A stretch of DNA of 64,000 nt from Robertmurraya dakarensis (lineage in GTDB: Bacteria; Bacillota; Bacilli; Bacillales; Cytobacillaceae), in NCBI RefSeq assembly GCF_900156875.1, contig NZ_LT707408.1:834552-898551 (forward strand), given 5' to 3'. The notes under the pieces are model-generated. The model saw only the letters and a list, made by a program, of their open reading frames with translations, made no database searches and was not told where the DNA came from. Shown piece after piece: positions 1,761 through 28,419 of the stretch. The position numbers and the translations under genes were made by a program. Position 1 is the first letter of the stretch, and every line of letters begins with the position of its first letter.

Positions 1761-3127
1761 TTGAAAATTTCCTCAGGTCTAGATATCGATTGTTCTGTGA
1801 GGAAAATAGAAAAAGCCAGAGAGAGTTTCCGAGTTAACATATCATATTCTTTTAATTGCGGGTGTTTGAAAATAGATCTGCCAGGTTTCGAGTTTGCTTC
1901 AAATAGCCATACATTTCCTTCACGATCAATGCCCAAATCGAAACCAATTTCTCCAATAATCCCGTTCATTTGGTTTTCTAAGCAAGAGCTTAGATCAAGG
2001 CAGGCTGTTTTTAGTTTAGCGATGATTTCTTCTTGCTGTGCTGCAGACTCGAAAATTTCTGGGATGGTTTTGATCTCACCACCATTTTTGACATGTGTTG
2101 TGACACTGCCGAGTCCTGCAATCTTTGCAGCAATCGCAGTGACTTTCCAATTTCCGAGAGCATCTTTATTGGTATGAACCCTGAAATCAACTGGACGCTT
2201 ATCAACCCGGAGTGAATGAATTCCCTGCTGTACGAGCATACCTGTCAACCGTTTATTTTTAAAAAGATTAGAAAACAAAGACTCTAATGTTTGATACTTG
2301 CGAAGTTTGTTGTCCCCTTGTTTATCTTGATAACGGCAATAATAATGTCCTTCTACAGCGTTATAAATAATTTGATGAATTCCGTTCCCGAGGCTGCCGT
2401 TTTTTGGCTTGAGGTATACGTGACCATAATCTGCGAGCATTCTTTCAATTAATGAAAAAGAAGTAAACGGATGGGTTTCAGGTAAATACTTTTCACACTT
2501 CTGGTCTTGCTGCAGCTTTTCGAAGATCTCTAATTTATTAAAAAAACCCGGATTATACCATGGAATTAAATAGTCATTCTGCAGGCGGTCTTTAACCTGC
2601 GCCAATCTTACTCTTTTTTCACTGCGGCGATTCGGCAGGCGGTCATAAATAACATTCGGAAAAGGAACCTCGATCGTTTCCCATCCTTTTTCTTGATAAA
2701 AAAGTCCATTAATCGTTCCATCTTCCCAATTGATATGATTTTCACCAAATATAAAGGCATGGGCGCCGATGGTCTTTTTTACAGATAGGAGCTTTGAAAA
2801 AAATAATGTGCGTTCACCTAATGGCCTCACCTTAAAAGGGGTAAACCCTGAGGTGAAAATGCCAATTAGCGGTCCGAGATATAGTGTTTTTTCATTTATA
2901 AATAGGTGAAGAGGGCCCGCAAGTTTTGGAATTTTAAGTTGTTTTGCCAATTCCTTAGTGAGAATAATCCTGTTTCTTCCCTCTGGGTGAGGCAAACATT
3001 TTGCTGTGACAGAGAAAGTACCGTAAGCAATTTGCATGTCAGTCTGCTTTACACCTTTTAGCTCGGCAGGGTAGTAAAAAGTCAATCCTTCTTCATCTAA
3101 CCATTGTATTGGGTATTGTTTATTCAT
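1757..3127 (-). CDS. YheD-like ATP-grasp protein (third tandem copy)
   Basis: A 456-aa YheC/D-family protein. The start is taken at ATG 3127-3125, 1 nt after the stop of the upstream gene and behind GAAAGGAG inside that gene; a longer in-frame reading has no ribosome binding site. The N-terminal half carries LGPLIGIFT and IYDRLPNRR, both family hallmarks. The ATP-grasp half has YLKPKNGSLGNGI and ends in FEANSKPGRS. Its length matches B. subtilis YheD. YheD is known as a mother-cell sporulation protein localising around the forespore; extending that to this copy is inference. Confidence 0.85.
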   Translation of the reverse strand: MNKQYPIQWLDEEGLTFYYPAELKGVKQTDMQIAYGTFSVTAKCLPHPEGRNRIILTKELAKQLKIPKLAGPLHLFINEKTLYLGPLIGIFTSGFTPFKVRPLGERTLFFSKLLSVKKTIGAHAFIFGENHINWEDGTINGLFYQEKGWETIEVPFPNVIYDRLPNRRSEKRVRLAQVKDRLQNDYLIPWYNPGFFNKLEIFEKLQQDQKCEKYLPETHPFTSFSLIERMLADYGHVYLKPKNGSLGNGIHQIIYNAVEGHYYCRYQDKQGDNKLRKYQTLESLFSNLFKNKRLTGMLVQQGIHSLRVDKRPVDFRVHTNKDALGNWKVTAIAAKIAGLGSVTTHVKNGGEIKTIPEIFESAAQQEEIIAKLKTACLDLSSCLENQMNGIIGEIGFDLGIDREGNVWLFEANSKPGRSIFKHPQLKEYDMLTRKLSLAFSIFLTEQSISRPEEIFK

Positions 3128-3128
3128 G

Positions 3129-4193
3129 TTAGATTGAGCTCCTTTCTGTGAGTGATTTAGCATATTGGAGAGGTGCTTCGTATAAGTCATCCGTCTTCTC
3201 CGGCTGGTCAATTAAAAGGACTTTACGACCGGGTTTGGAGTTGATATCCAGTATCCAAAGAGAACCATCGCGCGCTAGCCCAATATCAACACCGAGTTCG
3301 AATAAAGGAGGAAAGTGGGTTTCTAGGATAAGAGGGAGAGCATGTAAAATTTCATCGATTTCATTGCGGACGTAATTAGCAGATTTACCTTGAGCTTCCA
3401 GCCATATATCGTAATTTAATACAGATGCACCACCACTAAGGTTTGAAATAATCCGGTTTTCGCTGCCAACTCTTACTCCTTTACCAATGATTTTCCATTG
3501 CCCCCGTGCATTTTTTTGCAGCAATGAGCGGATATCAAATGGCTGATGAAGGTGATTAGTAAGGTGCAAGTATGGTTGTATAAGAAATTCTCTTTTCCCT
3601 AAGATCCTCGTTAACCAAGCTTGAAGTCTAGTTTCCTCCTTGAATGTATAAGATATTTGTTTATCCTTCTTATCCGTGCGTACGGTAACTGACTTCTGCT
3701 TAAATTCTAATAAGTAGATACCATTCCCCTGAGATCCATGAATTGGTTTAAGGATAATTTTTTTTGTTTTTTGAAGTTCCTTCAGAATGGCGGAAGGAGA
3801 ATCTGCCATTTTAGTAGGCGGTAAATAAGGCGCTAATTTGGTTTTTGATAATATTCGATGTAACTCAAGCTTGTTGGGAAGTCCAAAGCCCAAGAATTGA
3901 ATGTTGTCTTTAGATTTAAGCCAGTTTACAATAGCCATGCATCGTGTGGAGTGAAAGTCGCTATTGTAAAAACAGCGATCATACAGGATATTAGGTATTG
4001 GAAATTGTTCTTTTCTCCACACATGATTTTCTGCATCAAAAGCTTCCCCTTCAACCATCTCCGTTTCCGGTGTTATATTCGAAGGAATAAAACGATAGCA
4101 GCGGAAGCCAAATTTCTTTGCTCGTAATGCTATCTCAGTAAAATACGTTTCTTCATTCCTTAAATGAAGTGTTAAAAAACCAATACAATTCAT
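3129..4193 (-). CDS. yheC: YheC-like ATP-grasp protein (second tandem copy)
   Basis: A 354-aa protein close in length to B. subtilis YheC. The N-terminus (IGFLTLHLRNEETYF) is shorter than in the other copies and lacks their LGPLIGIMT domain. NILYDRCFY corresponds to the shared YDR motif. ATP-grasp motifs are ILKPIHGSQGNGIY and LDINSKPGRK. The ATG overlaps the stop of the preceding copy (ATGA, 4190-4193) with GGGTGA upstream. It forms one operon with the other three copies and is likely a cytoplasmic ligase in the mother cell; its substrate is unknown. Confidence 0.85.
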   Translation of the reverse strand: MNCIGFLTLHLRNEETYFTEIALRAKKFGFRCYRFIPSNITPETEMVEGEAFDAENHVWRKEQFPIPNILYDRCFYNSDFHSTRCMAIVNWLKSKDNIQFLGFGLPNKLELHRILSKTKLAPYLPPTKMADSPSAILKELQKTKKIILKPIHGSQGNGIYLLEFKQKSVTVRTDKKDKQISYTFKEETRLQAWLTRILGKREFLIQPYLHLTNHLHQPFDIRSLLQKNARGQWKIIGKGVRVGSENRIISNLSGGASVLNYDIWLEAQGKSANYVRNEIDEILHALPLILETHFPPLFELGVDIGLARDGSLWILDINSKPGRKVLLIDQPEKTDDLYEAPLQYAKSLTERSSI

Positions 4194-26457: not shown

Positions 26458-26616
26458 TTTGTTGCTGTAATGAATGAAAGAACTATATTTATTACAATCG
26501 TATCAAAAAATGACGAAGTGTAAATATGAAAATTCAAACATTCACAAATTTTTTTATACTTTCGTTAAGTTTAACTTCTTTTAAGGATTAAATGATAAGA
26601 AATATCTTACAATAAC

Positions 26617-26648
26617 AAAAAGCTTTTCAAAAGGTTGAAAAGCTTTTT
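26617..26648. terminator. terminator after hit
   Basis: A perfect 14-bp stem (26617-26630 with 26635-26648) with A/T-rich arms, usable in both directions. Confidence 0.85.
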
Positions 26649-26653
26649 GCTTA

Positions 26654-27073
26654 TTATAGGTTATGATTGATTTCATTAGCCATCTTTTGAAAATCTTCTG
26701 GTGAATAATCACTTTGATTCGACTTCCATACCGCACCGAAGCCATCTCCTTGACCGTAGCGGGGGATCAAGTGGACATGGTAATGGAAGACGGTTTGACC
26801 AGCTTTTTCACCATTATTATTCACTATGTTCATACCGACTGGATTGTATGTAGTTTTAAGAGCATTTGCGATTTTGGGAACGACTTCGAATATTTGCTGG
26901 GCAATTTCTGGTGTTAGTTCAAAAACATTTTCCTTATGCACTTTTGGAATAACTAAAGTATGGCCCTTCGTAACCTGGCTGATATCCAGGAATGCCACTA
27001 CATTTTCATTTTCAAATACTTTTGCAGATGGTATTTCACCATTCACAATTTTACAAAAAATACAGTCACTCAT
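26654..27073 (-). CDS. hit: HIT family hydrolase (Hit)
   Basis: A 139-aa histidine-triad protein. The N-terminal CIFCKIVNGEIP carries two Cys of a possible zinc site. The catalytic triad motif is FHYHVHLIPR at about residues 97-106. The family hydrolyses nucleoside phosphoramidates and adenylates. ATG 27073 has GAGAGGAGC upstream. It lies beside ecsA, divergently, as in B. subtilis. Its 3' end shares a strong hairpin terminator. It is cytoplasmic, with no signal sequence. Confidence 0.93.
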   Translation of the reverse strand: MSDCIFCKIVNGEIPSAKVFENENVVAFLDISQVTKGHTLVIPKVHKENVFELTPEIAQQIFEVVPKIANALKTTYNPVGMNIVNNNGEKAGQTVFHYHVHLIPRYGQGDGFGAVWKSNQSDYSPEDFQKMANEINHNL

Positions 27074-27149
27074 ATCGTTGCTCCTCTCAAATTAAAATGT
27101 CCTTGTCCATATTTTACCACAAATAAATCTAACGAAGAAAGAATATAAA

Positions 27150-27582
27150 TAAAAGGCAGGATCCGCGTGGAATCCTGCCTCTCGTGAAGGGGAAGCTTCT
27201 TCTAGTAAACGTCCTTTAATTCGGGTACCTTCTCTTTGATAAACACCTCATTTTTTTAATGAATGTTATCTAATGAGAAATCGATCTATAGTTCAAGCGT
27301 ACCATCCCCTTATCTTCTTTATATGTTTCTCAACGTATAAAGCTCGGGTATAGTCTTTGGTAAACACCTCATTTATTTTAAAATGTGTGTTTTACAGATC
27401 TTAGATTGAATGCAAAGTGTTGCAATACAATCATCCCCTTATTTGGATCGTTTGAAGCGGCTTATATTGAAATTAAATAGTCTGCGACAGACACCTCATT
27501 TCAATTTTTAGATGACCGTTTGTTAATCATCTATTTGTTTTCCCCTTCGAATATTATGATATCCACCTCATAAAGAAATATA
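27150..27582 (-). ncRNA. candidate non-coding RNA with alternating Shine-Dalgarno-like motifs
   Basis: The 600-bp hit-ecsA gap has no gene but carries a predicted minus-strand transcription unit. The promoter is TTGAAA (27606-27601), 18 bp, TATATT (27582-27577); transcription would start near 27570. The intrinsic terminator is at 27180-27154, followed by TTTTATTTATA. In between, the motif ATGAGGTG occurs four times (ending at 27564, 27492, 27365, 27244). AAGGGGATG or AAGGGGA occurs three times (27547, 27440, 27311) and alternates with it. Several copies lie in hairpin arms. I recognise no Rfam family. Each ATGAGGTG also opens a 5-17 codon reading frame, but none has a ribosome binding site. 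Confidence 0.55.
27154..27180 (-). terminator. minus-strand terminator in the hit-ecsA gap
   Basis: AGGCAGGAT/ATCCTGCCT (27154-27162 with 27172-27180) plus CC/GG, followed on the minus strand by TTTTATTTATA. The plus strand has no T run here, so it serves a minus-strand transcript. Confidence 0.75.
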
Positions 27583-27606
27583 CAATTGTTTATAAAAAAA
27601 TTTCAA
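27577..27606 (-). promoter_or_regulatory. sigma-A promoter of the candidate ncRNA
   Basis: TTGAAA (27606-27601), 18-bp spacer, TATATT (27582-27577) on the minus strand, diverging from ecsA. Confidence 0.5.
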
Positions 27607-27640
27607 AAGTGGGCTTTTCTATTTTTTACTAATACTTTTT

Positions 27641-27648
27641 GCTAAAAT
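27641..27648 (+). promoter_or_regulatory. extended -10 of the ecsAB promoter
   Basis: TTGCTAAAAT contains TGnTAAAAT, an extended -10, 31 bp before the ecsA start. No good -35 is visible. Confidence 0.4.
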
Positions 27649-27678
27649 GAGACTATCTACTTTTAGGAGTTGTTGTGG

Positions 27679-28419
27679 ATGAAGTTGCTGCAGATTAAAG
27701 AGGTTACGGGCGGGTATACACGGAACCCAGTATTGAAGGATGTTTCCTTCGACGTTGACCGAAACGAGATTGTAGGGTTAATTGGTCTGAACGGTGCGGG
27801 GAAAAGTACAACCATTAAGCATGTGATTGGGCTGATGGAGCCGCATAAAGGAGAAATAACGATTAATGGAAAGACCTTTATTGATAATAAAGAAGCGTAT
27901 CGCAAGGAGTTTACGTTTGTACCAGAAACACCCATTCTCTATGATGAACTGACATTAGATGAACACTTAAGGCTGACAGCTATGGCATACGGGATTGATG
28001 AACAACTATTTAAACAAAGAAAAGAGCAATTGCTGAATGAATTTCGAATGAGCAAGCGCTTAAAATGGTTTCCTGCCCATTTCTCTAAAGGAATGAAGCA
28101 AAAGGTTATGATTATGTGTGCTTTTTTAGTTCAGCCAAGTCTATATATCGTAGATGAACCATTTGTTGGTCTTGACCCGCTTGGCATTCAGTCGCTGCTT
28201 GATTTAATGAAGAAAATGAAGGAGAATGGCGCTGGTATCCTAATGTCAACTCATATTTTAGCTACGGCTGAACGGTATTGCGATCGTTTTGTCATTTTGC
28301 ATGAAGGTTCGGTAAGGGCGAAAGGTACATTAAAAGAGCTGCAGGATCAATTTGCCATGCCGGATGCCACATTGGATGATTTGTATATTAGATTAACAAA
28401 GGAAGAAGACTATGTTTGA
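27679..28419 (+). CDS. ecsA: ABC transporter ATPase EcsA
   Basis: A 246-aa ABC ATPase. Walker A GLNGAGKST is at about residues 38-46, the signature segment is SKGMKQK (SxGxxQ form) and Walker B is LYIVDEP. ATG 27679 is 9 nt after AGGAG; in-frame TTGs upstream touch the site. With EcsB it forms the Ecs transporter, needed in B. subtilis for secretion, competence and sporulation and for activity of the membrane protease RasP. The substrate is not settled; peptides are suspected. It overlaps ecsB by 8 nt. Confidence 0.95.
   Translation: MKLLQIKEVTGGYTRNPVLKDVSFDVDRNEIVGLIGLNGAGKSTTIKHVIGLMEPHKGEITINGKTFIDNKEAYRKEFTFVPETPILYDELTLDEHLRLTAMAYGIDEQLFKQRKEQLLNEFRMSKRLKWFPAHFSKGMKQKVMIMCAFLVQPSLYIVDEPFVGLDPLGIQSLLDLMKKMKENGAGILMSTHILATAERYCDRFVILHEGSVRAKGTLKELQDQFAMPDATLDDLYIRLTKEEDYV

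Follow-up and report, generated by a model that had tools for sequence, protein, structure and literature searches.

A predicted minus-strand RNA between hit and ecsA

We analysed a 64,000-nucleotide stretch of the Robertmurraya dakarensis genome (the window), in which a gap at 27074-27669 is flanked by hit on one side (minus strand, 26654-27073) and by ecsA on the other (plus strand, open reading frame 27670-28419). A first-pass annotation had proposed that this gap encodes an undescribed minus-strand non-coding RNA with Shine-Dalgarno-like repeats. Conservation, promoter, terminator and covariation strongly support such an RNA (Table 1), but the word undescribed was wrong for the RNA family, because S357/ncr1670 of B. 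subtilis and Bvs196 of B. velezensis occupy the same locus. It is nearly certain that the gap RNA corresponds to these RNAs in both position and structure. An Rfam covariance-model search of the window returned nothing at gathering score; the two matches in the gap lay far under their own gathering scores, with E values of 0.94 and 1.2.

Table 1 Features of the predicted RNA and its promoter, in transcript order (positions in the window)
Feature	Position	Strand	Remark
-35 element GTATA, sigF/sigG-type	27579-27583	minus	GYATA-like...GGNNATNNTA in relatives
ATGAGGTG in promoter spacer	27564-27571	minus	outside the predicted RNA and not conserved; relatives differ there in the alignment
-10 element GGATATCATAAT	27553-27564	minus	kept in relatives
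Predicted transcript	27147-27550	minus	about 400 nt, from promoter and terminator; start placed a few nt past the -10 element
P1 5' arm GAAGGGGAA	27540-27548	minus	pairs with 27186-27194
P2 helix TTGAAA/TTTCAA around U1	27467-27504	minus	arms 27504-27499 and 27472-27467
U1 motif ATGAGGTG	27492-27499	minus	followed by GTCTGTCGCAGAC (27480-27492), able to form a small hairpin
G1 module AAGGGGATG	27432-27440	minus	from the alignments
U2 motif ATGAGGTG	27365-27372	minus	
P4 hairpin CTTTATACGTT..AACATATAAAG	27317-27342	minus	
G2 module AAGGGGATGG	27302-27311	minus	10-nt perfect complement of RoxS CCATCCCCTT
U3 motif ATGAGGTG	27244-27251	minus	its GTGTTT can pair upstream
P1 3' arm TTCCCCTTC	27186-27194	minus	
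Intrinsic terminator GGCAGGATTCC...GGATCCTGCC with T tail	27151-27183	minus	

The repeats themselves are largely as first described. On the minus strand, ATGAGGTG occurs four times and AAGGGGA three times (27547-27541, 27440-27434 and 27311-27305) in strict alternation. The starts of the three longest copies lie 121 and 127 nt apart, in agreement with the proposed spacing of about 120-130 nt, and the copies of 25 nt at 27233 and 27354 share 92% of their bases. Two details had to be amended: the extension of AAGGGGA by TG is found in two copies, whereas the third is the 5' arm of the closing helix, and the most upstream of the four ATGAGGTG copies, all of which are present, falls between the -35 and -10 elements of the sigF/sigG-type promoter. 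None of 1,000 dinucleotide shuffles of 27150-27606 contained three copies of ATGAGGTG, and 15 of 1,000 contained any 8-mer four times or more. The whole window has seven copies of ATGAGGTG against 1.6 expected. The terminator with its T tail and the CTTTATA/TATAAAG hairpin (P4) are both where they had been noted.

The promoter had been placed elsewhere. Its string, TTGAAA-18-TATATT, is present, but the arrangement TTGAAA/TATANT recurs in only 2 of 82 related loci, and the assignment is probably wrong. By contrast, a GYATA-like element followed by GGNNATNNTA lies upstream of the RNA in 52 of the 82 loci and on the opposite strand in none of the 82; the count of 52 is a lower bound, because it located the first U motif by pattern and at least six of the 30 misses (L003, L005, L014, L027, L056 and L059) had the promoter. 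The -10 element alone was found in 67 of 82 loci, compared with 4 of 82 on the opposite strand. This conservation supports a promoter whose elements resemble the sigF/sigG consensus, and such a promoter would drive the window RNA. A generic promoter scan of 26500-28000 gave six promoter-like sites where 6.1 were expected.

A conserved unit built around a near-invariant element

Searching with the gap DNA at E values of 0.01 or better, we found matches in 6 of 7 genomes of the genus Robertmurraya and in 189 of 193 genomes of the family Cytobacillaceae, the window's own genome being included in both counts. By eye, two matches (G006:C11 and G002:C61) looked like coding sequence and not like copies of the RNA, and they were rejected. 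Two alignments, one of 25 oriented loci (14 of them printed) and one of 34 sequences thinned from 42 by removing near-identical ones and made without L055, revealed a single conserved minus-strand unit: promoter, GAAGGGGAA, U1, G1, U2, hairpin, G2, U3, TTCCCCTTC and terminator. Beyond the family, we searched 398 genomes of the class by pattern and obtained matches in 111, but a reversed control also matched in many genomes, so that single pattern matches mean little. On the basis of this search 20 loci were fetched, from 20 of the 35 sampled genomes of the same order outside the family, and 16 of these loci sit between ecsA and hit. The other four (L109, L110, L116 and L118) have neither gene beside them, and three of the four share the promoter type. 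The same four loci carry U-like motifs together with a AAATGGGGTG..GGCTTTGGAC element that resembles a mixture of the U and G modules. In 8 of the remaining 15 genomes the pattern search gave no match at all.

The repeated motifs at this locus are kept in related genomes. The U motif, AUGRGGUG, is present in 2-4 copies per RNA and is near-invariant over 237 instances: position 1 is A in 237, position 2 T in 235, position 3 G in 237, position 4 A or G in 237, position 5 G in 235, position 6 G in 236, position 7 T in 235 and position 8 G in 236. These counts are biased by the search pattern and by the filter, which allowed at most one core mismatch and removed 12 of 249 candidates; at least 5 of the 237 kept are not true copies (L047 1636, L066 1343, L078 1359, L106 1152 and L118 1701). 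The full element reads AAAUGRGGUG followed by a looser UYU...AGA part, and base conservation drops to about 0.5-0.6 past position 20. Six RNAs (L003, L005, L006, L014, L114 and L115) have G in place of A at position 4 in two or more of their copies. A GGGGAUGG module (the G module) alternates with the U motif in the host family; it is absent from the B. subtilis-group sequences that were read and altered in others, and is thus not essential to the RNA family.

Copy number varies around this plan, with two U motifs in L060-L063, three in most loci, four in L101 and L107, and more in L041-L043. L060, L061, L062 and L063 (about 2930-3270 on the RNA strand) are second, shorter copies with two U motifs and one G module and without hit or ecsA beside them; resolvase-like open reading frames lie near the copy in L061. 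L041, L042 and L043, at hit-ecsA, are tandem or extended copies with extra U and G units. L064 and L065 have in common an insertion of several dozen nucleotides between G1 and U2 that looks hairpin-like by eye.

We next consider the fold, written by hand as P1, a variable hairpin (Pv), P2, P4 and the terminator. In the alignment of 34 sequences 88.7% of its cells are paired. Across the 34 sequences the closing helix P1 is 93.8% paired, 3 of its 9 pairs show a both-side change, and minimum-energy folding recovers it for 42 of 43 RNAs; by eye, its sequence changes across families while its complementarity is kept. In the window RNA the arms of P1 span 363 nt. P2 is 81.9% paired (both-side change in 2 of 6 pairs), P4 is 90.9% paired, with C-G replaced by U-A in 7 of 33 and U-A by C-G in 3 of 34 sequences, and the terminator is 99.6% paired in the 34 sequences. 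Pv is weak, at 59%. Cells changed on both sides numbered 27, compared with 9.4 +/- 2.3 in shuffles (0 of 500 as high), nine pairs had a both-side change (8 of 500 shuffles as high), and the covariation score exceeded those of all 500 shuffles and all slid versions, in a comparison that favours the structure because it was written from the same 34 sequences. Further pair types in this test were not above shuffles (443 of 500). A ranking of column pairs by covariation consisted mostly of couplings between non-pairing columns, and was used as a hint only.

Pairing of the U motif within the molecule differs by copy: U1 pairs downstream, U2 is mixed and U3 pairs upstream. In 31 of 39 RNAs all six pairs can form between the GUGUUU of U3 and an AAACAC-like stretch upstream of it; the other eight reach five of six, as does the window's own U3. 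A small hairpin within the U element (GUYU/AGAC) gave no convincing double changes, and we therefore do not regard it as proven. The mean predicted unpaired fraction was 0.21 for U and 0.25 for G motifs, compared with 0.36 for control 8-mers; the motifs are thus predicted to be paired more often, which counts against a simple open sponge.

Published counterparts and competing explanations

Bvs196 is a 294-nt sRNA of B. velezensis, encoded in the 490 bp between hinT and ecsA; it is homologous to B. subtilis S357, forespore-specific and dependent on sigF/sigG, its transcription start was reported 4 nt downstream of its promoter, and its loss reduced spore resistance to heat and UV, according to the text of PMC9147052. 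As described there, proposed mRNA targets are spo0A and sspN-tlp, with pairing sites at nt 74-131 and 109-124. A 256-nt RNA from the B. subtilis hinT-ecsA interval, ncr1670, was listed among Hfq-associated RNAs in the text of PMC3574147, and that of PMC4410918 states that an earlier study found it affected by hfq inactivation. The text of PMC12456014 does no more than cite Bvs196. In a literature search that left most subscription journals outside its reach, we found no further study of the S357/Bvs196 RNA.

The same locus of B. velezensis NRRL B-41580 (L129) has a GCATA..GGACATCATAAT promoter, three U motifs, a closing 5'/3' helix and about 300 nt from promoter to T-run, features that fit Bvs196 (294 nt, hinT-ecsA, sigF/sigG); relatives of B. 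velezensis in named records have the same promoter and three U motifs at that place. Window RNA and Bvs196/S357 are thus alike in their hinT/hit-ecsA interval, orientation towards hit, sigF/sigG-type promoter, closing helix, three U motifs and terminator. They differ in length (about 400 nt in the window, 294 nt for Bvs196), in the GGGGAUGG modules that the window RNA adds and in their spacers. Local alignment of the window and B. velezensis RNAs scored 42, a value that 300 shuffles never approached beyond 30, and spans one U motif only. The closing helix is present in both, the B. velezensis arms pairing at -18.9 kcal/mol.

It has been proposed for Bvs196 that it acts on mRNAs by base pairing through its spacers, and the repeats would then only build the fold. 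The published work on this point includes binding measured in vitro by MST and mRNA changes upon deletion of the sRNA (text of PMC9147052). On L129, which is another strain and for which we assumed the start, the published sites fall between the estimated U1 (about nt 31-50) and U2 (about nt 148-167), and so leave the repeats unexplained. The spacer that holds them lacks conservation in the host family, whereas the U motif is near-invariant, and a shared fold alone does not explain that invariance because the pairing of U1, U2 and U3 differs. We therefore consider this account unlikely for the window RNA. A sponge of RoxS working through the G modules, like RosA, is about equally doubtful. G2 perfectly complements 10 nt of the RoxS C-rich region, this CCATCCCCTT site is unchanged in 29 of 30 aligned RoxS sequences, and AAGGGGATGG or AAAGGGGATG is the longest RoxS complement in at least 11 of 30 genomes, a lower bound since some RNAs (for example those of G006 and G002) were taken too short; RosA itself is a proven sponge with G-rich regions (text of PMC8216469). 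Set against this, the RoxS match is borderline, since dinucleotide shuffling of the window RNA gave an equally good one in 5 of 100 cases; five genomes (G349, G370, G244, G106 and G191) have no G-module complement longer than 7 nt though their RoxS site is unchanged; in G116 the site is missing one C, a loss that the G modules do not mirror; and for the U motif, which is the part found throughout, pairing with RoxS and CsfG does not exceed that of shuffled sequence. FsrA was not found in the host genome. Pairing of RoxS with the window RNA is possible, and these matches argue for it weakly. The host genome has a second RsaE/RoxS-like locus with ACCCCCTTT, below the family cut-off: L132 (G000:C10:424550-424659). 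CsfG was rejected as a partner: for each of the six elements, between 28% and 92% of 200 shuffles paired equally well; its C-rich loops are identical in 7 of 7 genus genomes, whereas A4 of the U motif varies in some lineages. A search for the complement ACACCTCATT gave, in all seven genus genomes, more matches than its reversed control; the excess in the window's own genome is about the three copies in the window RNA, and GAGGTG, read on the opposite strand, is a frequent Shine-Dalgarno sequence.

The repeats might instead act on the ribosome, as a decoy for the 16S anti-Shine-Dalgarno end that would hold 30S subunits and help to shut down translation in the maturing spore. GAGGUG is complementary to that end, and duplex energies with the 16S tail were -15.3, -11.2 and -10.0 kcal/mol for U1, U2 and U3, values reached by 1.0%, 2.5% and 4.0% of 200 shuffles (G1, 4.5%; G2, 20%). 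A standing mismatch argues the other way: of the 237 instances, in which the filter allowed one mismatch, 235 have T/U at position 2, where pairing with the anti-Shine-Dalgarno end calls for G. The motifs are also mostly paired by prediction. A plain ribosome decoy thus fits poorly, and we hold it to be improbable. Searching CsfG, RoxS and the 16S anti-Shine-Dalgarno end for a partner of the U motif established none. In favour of the earlier idea of a chain of tiny open reading frames opening with Met-Arg, most AUG frames begin MRCL, then S or L, then K or Q. Constraint at the protein level is lacking: 12 of 235 AUG frames stop within 7 codons, ATG is missing in 2 of 237 instances and conservation falls off beyond the element, which makes coding very improbable. 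An sRNA from the plus strand, raised as the main alternative, is likewise disfavoured, because promoter and terminator lie on the minus strand and the G-U pairs of the helices would be A-C on the other.

Proposed role and comparison with known RNAs

Considering that an invariant element repeats in a variable scaffold, we suggest that the window RNA is a multivalent platform or sponge for a forespore partner, a reading to which we give a probability of roughly 50%. The RNA would be made in the forespore by sigF/sigG RNA polymerase, as expression data of others indicate for B. velezensis (text of PMC9147052). It would fold into a closed ring of hairpins (P1, P2, P4 and the terminator) carrying 2-4 copies of the near-invariant U element, more in tandem arrays, and the repeated element may titrate or gather a trans-acting partner in the developing spore, through which any effect on spores would arise. 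A known C-rich sRNA is a less likely partner of the U motif than a protein that binds RNA or a component of the ribosome, and the G modules may be a lineage-specific addition that could also soak up RoxS. A fuller version, which we put forward tentatively, is that S357/Bvs196 is a widely conserved, modular forespore RNA in which the repeated, near-invariant AUGRGGUG does the work as a multivalent sponge; its target would be either 30S subunits or an RNA-binding protein specific to sporulation, and extra modules of particular lineages would trap RoxS as well. The present analysis shows what the RNA is, its promoter type, its structure and the conservation of its motif; the binding, the partner and the consequence for spores are in each case inferred.

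To our knowledge, sporulation-specific sRNAs are many and a mechanism is in hand for few. The window RNA belongs to a known sporulation sRNA that is unusual in its repeated invariant element, and the element itself is directly testable for binding and for spore resistance. The recurrence and near-invariance of AUGRGGUG are new here: the published work on Bvs196 targets leaves the element aside in its main text, where the words motif, GAGGUG, GAGGTG, Shine and sponge are absent (main text of PMC9147052). The range of the RNA, described there in 253 Bacillus genomes, is widened to further families, with module number changing.

RosA, the B. subtilis sponge of RoxS and FsrA, is, like the window RNA, a free-standing RNA whose G-rich stretches complement the C-rich region of RoxS; it differs in its sigma-A promoter, control by CcpA, length of about 225 nt and locus (S345), and the U motif is unmentioned in the text on RosA (PMC8216469). 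CsfG shares sigF/sigG control and restriction to the forespore, as that text describes (PMC8216469). It is C-rich and not G-rich, lies at another locus and has no special complementarity to the window RNA. Protein sponges of the CsrB/RsmZ type likewise repeat a short motif on a hairpin scaffold that varies; the window RNA differs from them in that its U motif is without GGA.
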